A stretch of DNA of 64,000 nucleotides. Origin: Hydrogenovibrio sp. SC-1 (GTDB lineage: Bacteria; Pseudomonadota; Gammaproteobacteria; Thiomicrospirales; Thiomicrospiraceae). The stretch spans positions 62,001 to 126,000 of the forward strand of contig NZ_PKGB01000001.1 of assembly GCF_002848135.1 (NCBI RefSeq). Reading direction: 5' to 3'. Of the stretch, positions 26,123-63,185 are shown one piece after another. The notes under the pieces were generated by a model, which searched no databases, was not told where the DNA came from, and was given only the letters and a program-made list of their open reading frames with translations. Position 1 is the first letter of the stretch. Each line of letters opens with the position of its first letter. The position numbers and the translations under genes are program-made.

Positions 26123-26707
26123 TTAAAACTCATACAAATGGTTCTCTGTAATGAGCCCGTCTAATGGAATGTCCCATGCATTTGGCTGGATCTGGTCAAT
26201 TTGCTGGCACTGATGCGCCCAACCAATGAGTTTGGGTTTATTGGACGGTGCGCCTGCCCTTCGTTTAAAGGCAAAAGTTCGATCATAATAGCCCCCGCCC
26301 ATACCGATTCGATTGCCTTGATGGTCAAAACACGTTAAAGGCATCAAGACTATATCCAGTTGATTGCCTGTTAAATGTTGATGATGTGGAACCTTGGGTT
26401 CTAAGATGCCAAATTGATTCAATTGATAGTGTGTAGCGACGGTTACTTCTGCAAAGGCCATCGATCGACCACGGTGGCTTTGAAGGACAGGTAAATACGT
26501 ACGGTGATGACGCTGCCATAATGCTCGAAAAAGAAGTTCAGTAGGCAGTTCGCCATCCTGAGCTAAAAATAGCGCGATTTTTTTAGGGCGTTGAGTCCAC
26601 CGTGAGCGCATGAGCCACCGCATCGCTTTATTAGCGTGCTGATATTGCTGCTCAGCTGTCAATGCATTTCGCTTTTGGCGACAAAGTTGGCGGGCATCTG
26701 ATGTCAT
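26123..26707 (-). CDS. ygfA: 5-formyltetrahydrofolate cyclo-ligase family protein YgfA
   Basis: 194 residues. It converts 5-formyl-THF to 5,10-methenyl-THF with ATP. Recognisable blocks are CRQKRNALTAEQQ at the N-terminus, IALFLAQDGELPTELLFRAL, and the C-terminal DIVLMPLTCFDHQGNRIGMGGGYYDRTF signature. It lies immediately downstream of 6S RNA on the same strand, the same order as ssrS-ygfA in E. coli, so the RNA and the mRNA are probably co-transcribed in part. Confidence 0.92.
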   Translation of the reverse strand: MTSDARQLCRQKRNALTAEQQYQHANKAMRWLMRSRWTQRPKKIALFLAQDGELPTELLFRALWQRHHRTYLPVLQSHRGRSMAFAEVTVATHYQLNQFGILEPKVPHHQHLTGNQLDIVLMPLTCFDHQGNRIGMGGGYYDRTFAFKRRAGAPSNKPKLIGWAHQCQQIDQIQPNAWDIPLDGLITENHLYEF

Positions 26708-26759: not shown

Positions 26760-26919
26760 AAAAAAGCGTGGGCTGAGCCATTATCCCTGAACCGTTAAGT
26801 TCAGGTGGCAGCCTCCACTAAAAATTTAGGTGTCTCGGACAAAAGCGAGACGCTCACCATTTAAAGTTTCTGGCCCCGAGGTCAAAGTTATCGGCAGGGG
26901 ATTTGAACTCAACCCACGA
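26760..26919 (-). ncRNA. ssrS: 6S RNA (SsrS)
   Basis: About 160 nt. The ends form a 10-bp closing stem: GTGGGTTGAG at the 5' side (plus-strand 26908-26917) pairs with CTCAGCCCAC at the 3' side (26769-26778), one G:U pair. Inside, blocks such as CCCCTGCCGAT, GTCCGAGA and the CACCTGAAC / GGTTCAGGG hairpin match gammaproteobacterial 6S RNA. The 3' end runs into T6 at 26760-26765. 6S RNA mimics an open promoter and binds sigma70 RNA polymerase. Position upstream of ygfA supports the call. Exact ends are estimates. Confidence 0.88.
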
Positions 26920-26925
26920 GTCCAT

Positions 26926-26953
26926 TTTATAACAATTAAATATTTTGTGTCAT
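26926..26953 (-). promoter_or_regulatory. Promoter of 6S RNA
   Basis: On the minus strand ATGACA (26948-26953) and TATAAA (26926-26931) are spaced by 16 bp, placing the transcript start near 26919, just before the closing stem of 6S RNA. Confidence 0.6.
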
Positions 26954-27124
26954 TCTTTCATTAACCCGGAGGGGGCATATATTGGCGTAGAATGGGAAAA
27001 GTGAATTGATTTATCAGGAAATTATCCTAATAAATATTCTATTTATTACGTGCGGCCGACTGACACTATATGGCTTGTGCGTAAAAGGCGGGTAACATTA
27101 GAGCAAATTATATGAAATATCACG

Positions 27125-27811
27125 CTAAGATTCGTTGGTGTTTTTAGCACTATTAGAGCCTGTTTGTGTGTCTTTTTCAGAAGGTCTAAATAGTTTTTCA
27201 GTATTAATCAACTCTTCGAGGAAGTATCCCGTCAGTTTTGCCCGTCCAGATAATTGTGCCTTTTTATAAATAATAGTGGCATGTTGGCGCACAGTTCCTT
27301 CGCCTCGATGACAGTTTTCTGCAATTTCTTTTAAGCTGTGCCCAAGAATGAGCAGGGATGCAACTTTTTGCTCAGCTGCTGTGAGTTTCCATTCTTTAAA
27401 GGTGGTTTGCATTTGCGTGGCAAGACAGGGTGCAAAGGTTGTGTCATTTATTTCAGTTGGTTGAACCGTGCTTATATTATTATCGGTTGTATCGGTTGTA
27501 TCGGTTGTATCGGTTGCATCAGTTGTATCAGTTGTATCAGTTTTCGTTTCTGCATTGTCAGAATCCATTTCATTGGTGATGTATTCTTGGGGTTGAAATG
27601 GAGCTGGACCGGTTAAGATCAGCACAATAATAGATATATAGAGTATGAATACTGCAACTTTAACCCCGAGATGGAGGGGGTCTAGGTTGGAATAACCCTC
27701 TAAATAGAGGTCAAAAACGTGCAAAAACATCGCTAGAAATAGAATACTTAATAGTGTCAAACGATTTTTTTTATTTAAATTTTGAAAAAACTGCACAGAA
27801 GTCAAATTCAT
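27125..27811 (-). CDS. Membrane-anchored LuxR-type HTH regulator
   Basis: 228 residues. Two hydrophobic helices (about 18-36 and 47-67) form a membrane hairpin. A linker follows with an Asp/Thr repeat (about 91-110: units of TTD/ATD). The C-terminal LuxR-type helix-turn-helix (about 141-200) reads LTAAEQKVASLLILGHSLKEI then RGEGTVRQHATIIYKKA. There is no receiver or autoinducer domain, so sensing would be through the membrane part. The RBS GAGGAT precedes the ATG. It is divergent from the cyc2-like gene, which suggests local control. I know no named family with this layout. Confidence 0.78.
   Translation of the reverse strand: MNLTSVQFFQNLNKKNRLTLLSILFLAMFLHVFDLYLEGYSNLDPLHLGVKVAVFILYISIIVLILTGPAPFQPQEYITNEMDSDNAETKTDTTDTTDATDTTDTTDTTDNNISTVQPTEINDTTFAPCLATQMQTTFKEWKLTAAEQKVASLLILGHSLKEIAENCHRGEGTVRQHATIIYKKAQLSGRAKLTGYFLEELINTEKLFRPSEKDTQTGSNSAKNTNES
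27481..27543. repeat. 9-bp in-frame tandem repeat in the LuxR-type linker
   Basis: Seven adjacent 9-bp units of the form ATCGGTTGT or ATCAGTTGT (plus strand), the last unit imperfect. Each unit is three codons (Thr/Asp), so unit gain or loss would change linker length without shifting the frame. Confidence 0.9.
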
Positions 27812-28120
27812 TCTATCCTCACAATTTTGGTACCAAAAGCGCTTTTATGTTCCAAGAAAAGTCACTGTCTGCCTGAATAGGGCTTATTGTAGCGCATTTT
27901 TTACATTTGTTAGGGGTTTTAATGATGGGGTCATTAAAAATTCATATTGTTGTCATAATGTTTATAACATAAGTTAGTGTGTGGTTTTTTTGATACATTT
28001 TTAGTTTCGAACATTTGTTATATATACACTTTGGTCGGTTTTTTTTAAGGTTGCGTCCAGGTATCGAAAACGATGCTTTTTGAAATTTAGTTCCTATCTA
28101 TTAACGAGGATACAAATAAT
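27812..28120. promoter_or_regulatory. Divergent regulatory region between the luxR-type and cyc2-like genes
   Basis: 309 bases, AT-rich, no gene. It holds a perfect 9-bp-arm palindrome TTTTAATGA / TCATTAAAA (27917-27939, 5-base spacer) and a smaller one, ATGTT / AACAT (27958-27970). A TATATATACACT stretch at 28019-28030 is a likely -10 zone for the cyc2-like gene, though no good -35 could be paired with it. The gene's RBS GAGGAT lies about ten bases before its ATG. The palindromes are candidate operators. Confidence 0.45.
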
Positions 28121-29365
28121 ATGAAAATGAAGAAGACTCAAGGTATTGCTTCTAAAGCGTTACTTTCTGTTGCAGGTTTTGCTGCTTTCGGATTAACTTT
28201 AACTCCGCCATCAGCTGAAGCTGTCCCAGCATTCGCACGTCAAATGGGCATGCAATGTTCAATGTGTCACTCAGTAGCTTTCCCAGCGATCAACTCTTTC
28301 GGTCGTGCTTTTAAAGCGTCTGGTTACACTATGACTGGTGCACAGCAACAAATCAAAGGTACTGATTTCGCTCTACCTTCAACTCTTAACATGTCAATGA
28401 TCTCTAAATTGCGTTATGTTGAGTCTGCTGGTAATGGTGAAGTTGTATGGCCTGATGAGCAAGCTTTCCTATTCGGTGGTAAAGTTTCTGACGGTATTGG
28501 TGCATTGGTTGAAGGTGCTCTAGCTGGTGGTGTTGTAACTATCGAAGATGGTTCTGGTAACGCAACTCTAGGTAACTCTACTGCGCATGATCTTGAAGGA
28601 ACTGCAAACTGGTCTTTAGGTTATAAGATCATGTTTGAAGCGGCGAAAATGGGTAACACTCGTGTTTCGATCGTTCCTTTCTCAACTGACGCTTTAGGGC
28701 CAGGGTATTCTTTCGAACTACTAAACACTGGTGCTCAACGTTCACAACGTATGATCGAAGATCGTAAAGCATTAAGTGCTTCTAACGTACTTGGTGTTGG
28801 TACAGGTGCTGCAACTGGTTTAGCGGTTGTTATCTCTGATCCTTCATACTTCGTTAACATCGCTCAGTATACTCCAGGCTGGTGGACTCATAGTACTGCT
28901 GCTAAGATCACTAACCTAGCAACTTATGTACGTGCTGCTGCTATGCAACAAGTTGCTGGTATGGATGGCGCAATTGGTGTTCAAATGATTTCTGGTGAAG
29001 TAACTGGTAATGACGGTTCAACTGCTGCTAAGCTTGACGGTTATGTAATTGACTCACAGCTTGAAGGTAAAGTTGCTGGTCGTAACTTCGCTGCTTACCT
29101 AAGCTATGGTGATGTTAAGAACCCTAATGACGGTGCTTCTGCAACTACAGGTACTTCAGCTAAGTCTACTAACCTTGCTGTGTTAATGGGTATTACTGAT
29201 ACTGTTAACGGTTATGTTGCCACTCGTTCTTCTAAAGAAAAAGGTGACTCAAACACTGTTGGTGTTGCATGGTCTATGCGTCAGAACATGAAGTTAGAAT
29301 TGTTCCACGCTATGCCTAAAGGTGGTGATGCTACCACTACTCTACAAATGTTCACTGCTTGGTAA
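28121..29365 (+). CDS. Cyc2-like outer-membrane fused cytochrome c-porin
   Basis: 414 residues. A signal peptide is cleaved near AEA-V (residue 34). Directly after it comes one heme site CSMCH (46-50) in the context FARQMGMQCSMCHSVAFPAI followed by NSFGRAFKASGYTM, the N-terminal pattern I know from Cyc2. The remaining 340 residues look like an outer-membrane barrel: alternating strands, Gly/Asn/Thr turns, terminal tryptophan. Cyc2 proteins take electrons from extracellular Fe(II). The codon set is narrow (GCT, GGT, GTT, AAC, TTC), suggesting high expression. Alternative: another porin-cytochrome with a different donor. Substrate is not provable here. Confidence 0.68.
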   Translation: MKMKKTQGIASKALLSVAGFAAFGLTLTPPSAEAVPAFARQMGMQCSMCHSVAFPAINSFGRAFKASGYTMTGAQQQIKGTDFALPSTLNMSMISKLRYVESAGNGEVVWPDEQAFLFGGKVSDGIGALVEGALAGGVVTIEDGSGNATLGNSTAHDLEGTANWSLGYKIMFEAAKMGNTRVSIVPFSTDALGPGYSFELLNTGAQRSQRMIEDRKALSASNVLGVGTGAATGLAVVISDPSYFVNIAQYTPGWWTHSTAAKITNLATYVRAAAMQQVAGMDGAIGVQMISGEVTGNDGSTAAKLDGYVIDSQLEGKVAGRNFAAYLSYGDVKNPNDGASATTGTSAKSTNLAVLMGITDTVNGYVATRSSKEKGDSNTVGVAWSMRQNMKLELFHAMPKGGDATTTLQMFTAW

Positions 29366-29387
29366 GTTTGATTACCTTCAGTTAACT

Positions 29388-29445
29388 TTCCTAACCCTTG
29401 GGTTAGGAAGCTCTGTAGAAAGAACCACCTTCGGGTGGTTTTTTT
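29388..29445 (+). terminator. Tandem hairpins ending the cyc2-like transcript
   Basis: Two hairpins follow the stop. The first is a 10-bp perfect repeat TTCCTAACCC / GGGTTAGGAA (29388-29409) without a T-run. The second is AACCACC-TTCG-GGTGGTT followed by T5 (29423-29445), a classic intrinsic terminator with a stable UUCG loop. The first may protect the mRNA 3' end. Confidence 0.82.
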
Positions 29446-29534
29446 ATGTCTGGAATAAAGTTTTATATTGTAACGAGCGGCTGTTTTATTCTGGGGATGC
29501 TGCTATTGATGTGTGGATTCTACTTTATGGAGGA

Positions 29535-29810
29535 CTAAGAAGGGGTATCTTGTGTGTCTGTCGTCGCTTGTTGTTGGATGGATTCGAGTTGTTGATCCAG
29601 TCTTAAACAATATTGGGTGGTATCTTGTTTCATTTGCAAATAGTCATAACACAAATTTAAAGCAACCATTAGCACTTTGCTTTCCCCTTGTAAGTTGCTG
29701 ACTTGGTCTAACTTATCTTCTAACAAAGTGGCTGCTTCAATTAGCAGTTCACGGTCTTCTGGCGCACACGGAACTTCAAAAGTGTGGTTCATCAGTGAAA
29801 GCGTTAACAT
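29535..29810 (-). CDS. zapA: Cell division protein ZapA
   Basis: 91 residues. ZapA cross-links FtsZ filaments at the division ring. The N-terminal beta part (LSLMNHTFEVPCAPEDRELLIEAATLLEDKLDQV) and the helix LMVALNLCYDYLQMKQDT followed by a coiled coil match the family. It is convergent with the cyc2-like gene and divergent from ygfB. In E. coli zapA, ssrS and ygfA are contiguous; here two genes lie between zapA and ssrS. Confidence 0.85.
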   Translation of the reverse strand: MLTLSLMNHTFEVPCAPEDRELLIEAATLLEDKLDQVSNLQGESKVLMVALNLCYDYLQMKQDTTQYCLRLDQQLESIQQQATTDTQDTPS

Positions 29811-61997: not shown

Positions 61998-63185
61998 ATG
62001 ACCGATTTTAATCAATCCTTAGATCGACTGGGCACCGATGCTGAAAAGTATGAGTTGCGCACAACGTTATTTGGCACAGATAAGGTATTGCCGATGTGGG
62101 TGGCAGATCAAGATTTGGCCACCCCAGATTTTATTGTGCAAGCGTTACAAAATCGATTAACGCATCCGGTTTTAGGGTATACCTTAATGTCAGATCGCTT
62201 GTATCAAGCGATTATCAATTGGCAGGCACAATATCACTATGATGTTAAAGCTTCTGAAATCGTCTTTACCCATAATGTTGCTAATGGCTTTCATTTAGCG
62301 GTGCAAGCGTTTACGGAACCTGGTGATGCGGTATTGGTACAAACGCCTGTTTATCCGCCATTTTTAAAGGCCGCGCCGCATAATCAGCGCAAAACAGTAA
62401 CGGCCCCTTTGCAATGGCAGGATGGACATTATCAAATTGATTTTGAGGCATTAGAAAGCATCATACTTGAGCAACAAGTCAAGTTGCTACTGTTTTGCCA
62501 TCCGCAAAACCCATCCGGTCGGGTTTGGCAAAAATCCGAATTGCTGAAGCTAGCAGAACTTTGCCTAAAACATCAAGTATTGGTGGTGTCGGATGAGATT
62601 CATGCCGATATGACGTTTGCCCCCCATCAGCACGTGCCCATGGCTTCGTTATCCGCTGAAATCGCACAAAATACCGTGACTTTAAGCTCCCCTGGTAAGA
62701 CGTTTAATTTAGGGGGCTTGCAGACGGGATATGCCATTATTGCTAATCCAAGATTGCGTCGTCGCTATATTCAAGCTTGTCAATCGGTGTCGATTTTGGA
62801 ACCGAATCTATTTGCTAATGTGGCGATGGAAGCTGCCTATTCGGAAGATGGCAAATCCTATCGAGATGAACTGGTATCGTTTTTACAAGACAATATTCAA
62901 ACAGTCACTGAGTTTTTTCAACAGCATTTTCCGCAAGTGGGGGTGGTGCAGCCGCAAGCCTCTTTTTTAATTTGGCTCGATTTTTCAGCGCTGTTTTCAG
63001 AGCAATCGGCGTTAAAAAACTGGTTAATCCATGAAGCAGGATTGGGGTTGAATGATGGTGAAACCTTTGGCGAAAATGGCACAGGCTTTATGCGAATGAA
63101 TATCGCTGTGTCACCCAGCCAATTAGCCCAAGCCTTATCCCAACTAGAAACCGCTAAGTCAGCATTACCCAATTATCAGCGTTAA
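61998..63185 (+). CDS. ovoB: PLP-dependent C-S lyase, probable OvoB
   Basis: 395 residues of the MalY/PatB class of PLP beta-lyases. The signature VLPMWVADQDLATPDFIVQAL near the start, FCHPQNPSGRVW, VVSDEIHADM and the PLP lysine in LSSPGKTFNLGGLQTGY (about 233) are visible. Such enzymes cleave cystathionine-type thioethers. Because it begins immediately after the ovoA stop it is best read as OvoB, which cleaves 5-histidylcysteine sulfoxide to 5-thiohistidine. Cystathionine lyase activity is the alternative. A CCAGGCCTGG element follows the stop. Confidence 0.85.
   Translation: MTDFNQSLDRLGTDAEKYELRTTLFGTDKVLPMWVADQDLATPDFIVQALQNRLTHPVLGYTLMSDRLYQAIINWQAQYHYDVKASEIVFTHNVANGFHLAVQAFTEPGDAVLVQTPVYPPFLKAAPHNQRKTVTAPLQWQDGHYQIDFEALESIILEQQVKLLLFCHPQNPSGRVWQKSELLKLAELCLKHQVLVVSDEIHADMTFAPHQHVPMASLSAEIAQNTVTLSSPGKTFNLGGLQTGYAIIANPRLRRRYIQACQSVSILEPNLFANVAMEAAYSEDGKSYRDELVSFLQDNIQTVTEFFQQHFPQVGVVQPQASFLIWLDFSALFSEQSALKNWLIHEAGLGLNDGETFGENGTGFMRMNIAVSPSQLAQALSQLETAKSALPNYQR

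Follow-up and report, generated by a model that had tools for sequence, protein, structure and literature searches.

What are a gene for a Cyc2-like cytochrome-porin and a divergent gene for a membrane-anchored LuxR-type regulator doing between zapA and the 6S RNA gene ssrS, and do the two belong together? These genes lie in a 64-kb window, the whole stretch that we analyzed, which spans positions 62001–126000 of one contig in a host genome of 2.45 Mb in 41 contigs. The answer that we favor, and consider probable, is that they form a two-gene module, co-inherited and relocated, in which a Cyc2-type cytochrome-porin is served by a membrane-anchored regulator of its own and a candidate operator. 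Four genomes carry the argument: the window genome (G000), that of a sister species in the same genus (G003), and two from another genus of the family (G019 and G081).

The Cyc2-like gene (28121–29365, plus strand) encodes 414 amino acids, comprising a signal peptide to about residue 34 (recognized by inspection), the sequence AVPAFARQM, a single CXXCH heme-binding motif (CSMCH, residues 46–50; 28256–28270, plus strand), the tripeptide PAI, and a porin-like remainder ending in W. The marks of Cyc2, in the available text of Keffer et al. (PMC8406198), are a signal peptide, AXPXFAR[Q/K][T/Y] ahead of a single CXXCH, PXL four residues past the CXXCH, a length of at least 365 amino acids and a 16-strand porin. 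The signal peptide, single CXXCH and length are all found in the window protein, and its AVPAFARQM fits the first motif at 8 of 9 positions, the misfit being the final M. The orthologs with an intact N-terminus, from G019 and G081, read AAPAFARQT and fit at all nine. At the PXL mark all three proteins have PAI, retaining the spacing of four. Because two published motif positions deviate in the window copy (M for T/Y and PAI for PXL), we call the protein Cyc2-like rather than a certified Cyc2.

Phylogeny agrees with this assignment. In a 27-row tree the four proteins of the family formed one clade (support 100/100), lying within a 13-row Cyc2-like group (99/96); its placement beside the neighbors from G408 and G271 was less well supported (85/75). 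In most other members of the 13-row group the heme motif is followed by CHFQHFP or a sequence close to it, while the other group is mostly of the CHTVFPEL type. Outer-membrane barrels usually end in an aromatic residue, and F, Y or W was C-terminal in 12 of the 12 complete members of our first alignment. Strand-like alternation gave 15–16 peaks against 10–12 in shuffles, a weak agreement with a 16-strand barrel. The identity proposed in an earlier sequence-only reading of this DNA is thus upheld by the published motif, with its two deviating positions, and by a well-supported clade among Cyc2-like proteins.

Two other claims of that reading, a narrow codon set and a terminator private to the gene, also stood. 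The effective number of codons is 32.5, the lowest among 35 non-overlapping window open reading frames (ORFs) of at least 200 amino acids (next 41.2, median 50.9), a bias consistent with an abundant protein. Past the gene, a double hairpin with a T run behind it (29387–29445, plus strand) folds at −30 kcal/mol (z −3.1), with 1 of 200 shuffles as good, and would serve as its terminator; our terminator scan did not list it. The promoter scan, which found 4 sites against 7.4 expected, gave no sigma-70-like promoter for cyc2.

Several observations weigh against calling the protein a Cyc2. Besides deviating at two consensus positions, the window copy would be discarded by a strict Cyc2 motif filter. 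The peaks of strand-like alternation are modestly above chance (15 vs 10.3 ± 1.9), Porin_4 was matched in only 1 of the 13 group members, and an AlphaFold model built from 2 sequences had a mean pLDDT of 26.8 and was not used. The sequence-only reading had staked its case on a match to a Cyc2 or porin-cytochrome profile. None came from Pfam (0 matches), NCBIfam (0) or PDB (none convincing), libraries in which we found no Cyc2 profile, a result that answers this part of the case only by half; motif and tree favor a Cyc2-like protein.

Other Cyc2-like genes have varied surroundings. In G010, the neighbors of such a protein of a different type (L057:5827-7017) are a protein rich in Met and another that is large and ATPase-like, a setting that reads as metal handling. 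In G054 another (L055:6352-7725) adjoins an RND-like efflux set, named by reading. Outside the family, the nearest Cyc2-like relative is encoded in G408, and its gene is followed directly by one for a two-CXXCH cytochrome c (L105:741-1403; PF13442, PF00034), a candidate electron acceptor.

The regulator gene (27125–27811, minus strand) encodes 228 amino acids and matches the GerE helix-turn-helix domain PF00196 at 26.2 bits against a cut-off of 23.5; for the NCBIfam LIC13292 regulator family it scored 40.3 bits against a cut-off of 200. An AlphaFold model from 2 sequences (mean pLDDT 61.5) has helices at residues 14–38 and 45–67, a predicted two-helix membrane hairpin (27611–27772, minus strand), then residues 70–127 without confident structure, then the LuxR-type helix-turn-helix domain at residues 130–205 (27197–27424, minus strand), a placement shared by the Pfam match and the alignment; pLDDT is about 70–85 in the hairpin parts. 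Of 46 regulators compared, 43 have D34, 45 have D38 (the window protein has E), 44 have H47 and 39 have E51. These four residues would sit together at the hairpin tip. Within the regulator gene, tandem 9-nt repeats (TATCGGTTG; 27472–27543) encode a Thr/Asp-rich linker from the hairpin to the DNA-binding domain, and their copy number might vary.

Relatives of this regulator were found in 34 of 369 genomes of the class at E ≤1e-12, and many lie beside other cytochrome genes. Outside the family, 19 of 28 regulator loci have a cytochrome b561 neighbor (identified by PF01292 in all five reference proteins). Inside it, fccB, for flavocytochrome c sulfide dehydrogenase, falls within the fetched stretch at 17 of the 22 regulator loci lacking Cyc2 (PF21706 in the one protein checked). 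Two cytochrome c-fccB gene pairs stand in tandem beside a regulator relative at L160, L162, L165 and L166, and G081 has a second regulator paralog (L174:5546-6085) with no cytochrome neighbor in the fetched stretch. The Cyc2-linked regulators differ consistently from their relatives at two positions, both inside the DNA-binding domain: residue 167 is C and residue 172 is G in 4 of 4, while elsewhere they are R in 42/42 and K in 40/42. The tip residue E51 is likewise replaced, by K, H, D or H.

We propose the following mechanism. After export, the Cyc2-like protein would acquire one heme at CSMCH and fold into place in the outer membrane. It would there relay electrons to a periplasmic cytochrome and on to a heme-copper oxidase; the donor would lie outside the cell, with Fe(II) or the surface of an Fe/S mineral the likeliest. 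The regulator would be a one-component protein held in the inner membrane, with a hairpin tip (conserved D, D/E and H) that may report a redox or metal signal, arising in the periplasm or the membrane, to a tethered LuxR-type domain; this domain would bind three ACAWWTGT sites in the region between the genes and switch cyc2 and probably the regulator's own gene. In this scheme we infer the outer-membrane location, the electron donor, the signal, DNA binding at the sites and the sign of regulation. Fe(II) as the donor is taken from Cyc2 biology, and by that analogy extracellular electron uptake from Fe(II) by the Cyc2-like protein is plausible. For the heme-copper oxidase, a single PF00115 (COX1) match was found in every one of the four genomes. 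No electron acceptor is encoded by the two genes of the module, and the sole heme-copper oxidase gene found is on another contig, which lends no support to describing the module as self-contained.

The same regulatory logic could serve a cytochrome-porin with some other donor or role, such as surface sulfide, sulfur or thiosulfate, cathode-like contact with minerals, or periplasmic redox or metal homeostasis. We regard this as the less probable alternative, though one to be taken seriously. It draws on the frequent pairing of the family's regulator relatives with cytochrome c-fccB, which may mean that the signal reflects the redox of sulfur or quinones and not iron, and on the metal-handling neighborhood of the other-type protein in G010; distant Cyc2 homologs may moreover differ in function, according to the available text of Keffer et al. 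(PMC8406198). Against it, the closest relatives of our protein group with proteins of the CHFQHFP-type Cyc2 motif, and the cytochrome c gene just downstream in G408 fits electron uptake by way of a periplasmic cytochrome.

Whatever the donor, is the regulator truly dedicated to the Cyc2-like gene? Searched with a three-row profile for the Cyc2-like protein, 5 of 62 genomes of the family gave a match. The match in G010 was weak, N-terminal and to a different 396-amino-acid protein; the other four genomes (G000, G003, G019 and G081) have the same type, at 45–72% identity to the window protein. In 4 of 4 of them the divergent regulator adjoins the Cyc2-like gene, and it does so at two chromosomal places, between zapA and ssrS in G000 and G003 and beside an amtB-like gene in G019 and G081. 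These sequences show the genes to be a pair that has been inherited together. Outside the family, 61 of the 369 class genomes searched, the window genome not counted, had some Cyc2-like match. No regulator was found beside Cyc2-like genes at any of 29 loci outside the family, within the fetched stretches, a search repeated by tblastn. Pairing with the regulator is thus a feature specific to this lineage; by the same token, Cyc2 has no general need for such a regulator, which tells against our explanation.

The region between the divergent genes (27812–28120) is exactly 309 bp, as the sequence-only reading had it, and contains a candidate operator of three palindromic sites, assigned to neither strand: site A, TTACATTTGTTA (27901–27912); site B, TAACATAAGTTA, with one core mismatch (27965–27976); and site C, GAACATTTGTTA (28009–28020). 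The core ACAWWTGT occurs at three places in the same order in all four cyc2/regulator intergenic regions. Exact cores number 2, 2, 1 and 3 in the four regions, against shuffle means of 0.09, 0.09, 0.04 and 0.06, and at least one exact core in each of G000, G019 and G081 arose in 1 of 2000 shuffle sets. The whole 64-kb window has four exact cores, two of them in this region.

The same core is found upstream of cytochrome genes beside the regulator's relatives. There were 24 fccB-type stretches, of which 18 were examinable (1 was cut by a contig end and 5 were without both genes). Four of the fccB loci, among them close relatives from G012 and G018, suggested the 12-nt palindrome RGACAWWTGTCY. 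Close to where the cytochrome c-fccB operon begins, the exact core was present in 10 of 18 and at least 11 of the 12 palindrome positions in 16 of 18. With the four suggesting loci left out, the figures were 6 of 14 for the exact core (shuffle mean 0.68, maximum 4) and 12 of 14 for at least 11/12 (shuffle mean 0.17, maximum 1 of 200). Near regulator starts at class loci, 14 of 27 had at least 11/12 (shuffle mean 0.28, maximum 2) and 5 of 27 had all 12 (shuffle mean 0.01). This excess over shuffles at both fccB and class loci indicates that the site goes with the regulator family. The Cyc2 regions carry the palindrome core with T/A flanks instead of G/C. This flank change parallels the C167/G172 change in the Cyc2-linked regulators, which predicts altered recognition but does not prove it.

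There is evidence on the other side as well. The core is missed by one base at site B in G000 and G003 and at sites B and C in G019. De novo word discovery was weak, with some 8-mer equally frequent in 10 of 100 shuffles, and no site of at least 11/12 was present in 2 of the 18 fccB loci and 13 of the 27 class loci. We rejected a genome-wide regulon for the motif, which matched 21 times while its reversed control matched 18 times; a private switch accounts for this absence of enrichment better than a large regulon would.

Could the genes be neighbors through common inheritance only, the LuxR-type gene having no control over cyc2 and the shared words arising by chance in A+T-rich DNA? The four pairs could indeed stem from one ancestral arrangement, and the weak de novo counts and lack of genome-wide enrichment would be expected. 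We nonetheless find this very improbable, since the two genes have remained adjacent at two chromosomal places, the intergenic regions hold more cores than shuffles do, and the same core recurs, well above shuffles, at promoters of other cytochrome genes beside regulator relatives. The earlier proposal of a dedicated regulator is accordingly strengthened: the divergent pair is kept in 4 of 4 family genomes at two loci, with a candidate operator between the genes.

Joining these threads, we can formulate a broader proposition, on which we are evenly divided. Membrane-anchored one-component regulators of a single family, widespread and apparently undescribed, would control b561, cytochrome c-FccB and Cyc2 genes of Gammaproteobacteria, sensing redox state or metal through a D-x3-D...H-x3-E cluster at the hairpin tip and binding RGACATATGTCY-type palindromes. 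In the Cyc2 lineage the sensor (E51), the recognition helix (R167C, K172G) and the operator flanks would have changed together, leaving an iron oxidase-like module with a switch of its own.

How did the module come to lie where it does? The flanks are ygfA, for 5-formyltetrahydrofolate cyclo-ligase (26123–26707, minus strand; PF01812, TIGR02727), with ssrS next to it, and zapA (29535–29810, minus strand; PF05164). Past zapA come UPF0149 (ygfB-type), PepP-type and UbiH-type genes and a UbiH/UbiF/VisC-family hydroxylase gene, in that order. Gene identities, strands and order were confirmed as first described, from ORFs and Pfam/NCBIfam matches. In E. coli, zapA, ssrS and ygfA are contiguous and beside ygfB-pepP-ubiH-ubiI. 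We searched 31 relatives for ygfA and zapA, and 19 besides the window genome had both on one contig. In 18 of these 19 the matched stretches are 264–568 nt apart, against 2,830 nt in the window genome; the exception, G015, has them 5.8 kb apart on opposite strands. Within the genus, 9 of the 10 other genomes have the short gap. In the tenth, G003, ygfA, the regulator and the Cyc2-like gene run in the same order to the contig end, and zapA opens another contig.

The gap comparison bears out the claim that the pair was inserted; the opposite finding, the same two genes between ssrS and zapA throughout the family, did not emerge from the gene orders. As the sequences stand, the simplest reading is a single insertion in the common ancestor of the two sister species, with the module placed elsewhere in the other genus. 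That the pair is instead ancestral and lost by most relatives is scarcely credible: loss is common and the pair is in 2 of 11 genomes of the genus, but in 18 relatives, among them those 9 of the 10 others in the genus, zapA and ygfA flank ssrS directly across short gaps, and the other genus keeps the pair at a different place. No direct repeats resembling a target duplication were found at the insertion borders. In a plasmid collection 3 records matched, with query coverage of at most 24%, so there is no sign of plasmid carriage in that collection.

The ssrS gene itself (26766–26919, minus strand), assigned by comparison and covariation, has diverged from its Rfam model: it scored 26.1 bits against RF00013 (E 0.0022), short of the gathering score of 46.4. 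No 6S RNA above that score was found in the window, the window genome or 11 stretches from relatives. The RNA directly adjoins ygfA upstream in 12 genomes, with a mean column identity of 86%, and 13 of the 39 predicted pairs of its fold are changed on both sides in the 12-genome alignment; together these argue that ssrS is real though divergent, and that the sequence-only reading placed it correctly beside ygfA. In all stretches searched the family's 6S RNA fell under this threshold and would therefore escape standard annotation. The insertion did not part ssrS from a promoter-like site, found by the promoter scan, that still lies immediately upstream (26953–26924, minus strand).

Cyc2 and LuxR-type regulators are known kinds of protein. 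Our literature search, by listings, found no dedicated Cyc2-LuxR pairing, no operator for one and no cytochrome-linked regulator family of this sort; searches on cyc2 regulation named no dedicated regulator, and those for the palindrome GGACATATGTCC returned nothing. Cyc2 serves as a marker for neutrophilic iron oxidation. In the available text of one study, no cyc2 was present in the earlier-analyzed genomes of Hydrogenovibrio and related genera (PMC6501319), and in that of another, Fe(II)-oxidizing Hydrogenovibrio is reported with cyc2 not detected (PMC11439405). If the window genome belongs to that reportedly cyc2-lacking family, the module is a new lead. With a candidate regulator and operator beside a Cyc2-like gene, it allows direct tests of whether Fe(II), sulfide or an electrode acts as inducer. 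More widely, cytochrome control in many Gammaproteobacteria may come to light through the palindrome and the regulator family.

Three known systems, and the regulator's own relatives, offer comparison. For Thiomicrorhabdus, a related sulfur-oxidizing genus, extracellular electron uptake has been proposed through a 30-gene multiheme cytochrome cluster; the likeness to our module is in proposed electron uptake, and Cyc2 goes unmentioned in the available portions of those reports (PMC9751133, PMC13293256). With the Cyc2 iron oxidases of Mariprofundus PV-1 and Acidithiobacillus ferrooxidans and Cyt572 of Leptospirillum, as described in the available portions of their reports, the window protein shares the signal peptide, FAR motif, N-terminal single CXXCH, length of about 400 amino acids, porin-like remainder, aromatic C-terminal residue and signs of high expression (PMC8406198, PMC7029218). 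Unlike them, it has M for T/Y and I for L in the two published motifs, its gene is paired with a membrane LuxR-type regulator, and its host family is not known to bear Cyc2. With LuxR/GerE (NarL-type) regulators our regulator has the PF00196 domain above cut-off in common; it differs in having, by Pfam, no autoinducer or receiver domain, and in its two-helix hairpin (D, D/E, H), disordered linker and ACAWWTGT palindrome. The regulators beside b561 and cytochrome c-fccB genes, which have no Pfam name beyond GerE, come closest, sharing the architecture, the tip residues and the palindrome core upstream of the neighboring cytochrome gene; they differ in having flanks of RG...CY rather than T/A, and R167 and K172 (the latter in 40/42) rather than C and G.

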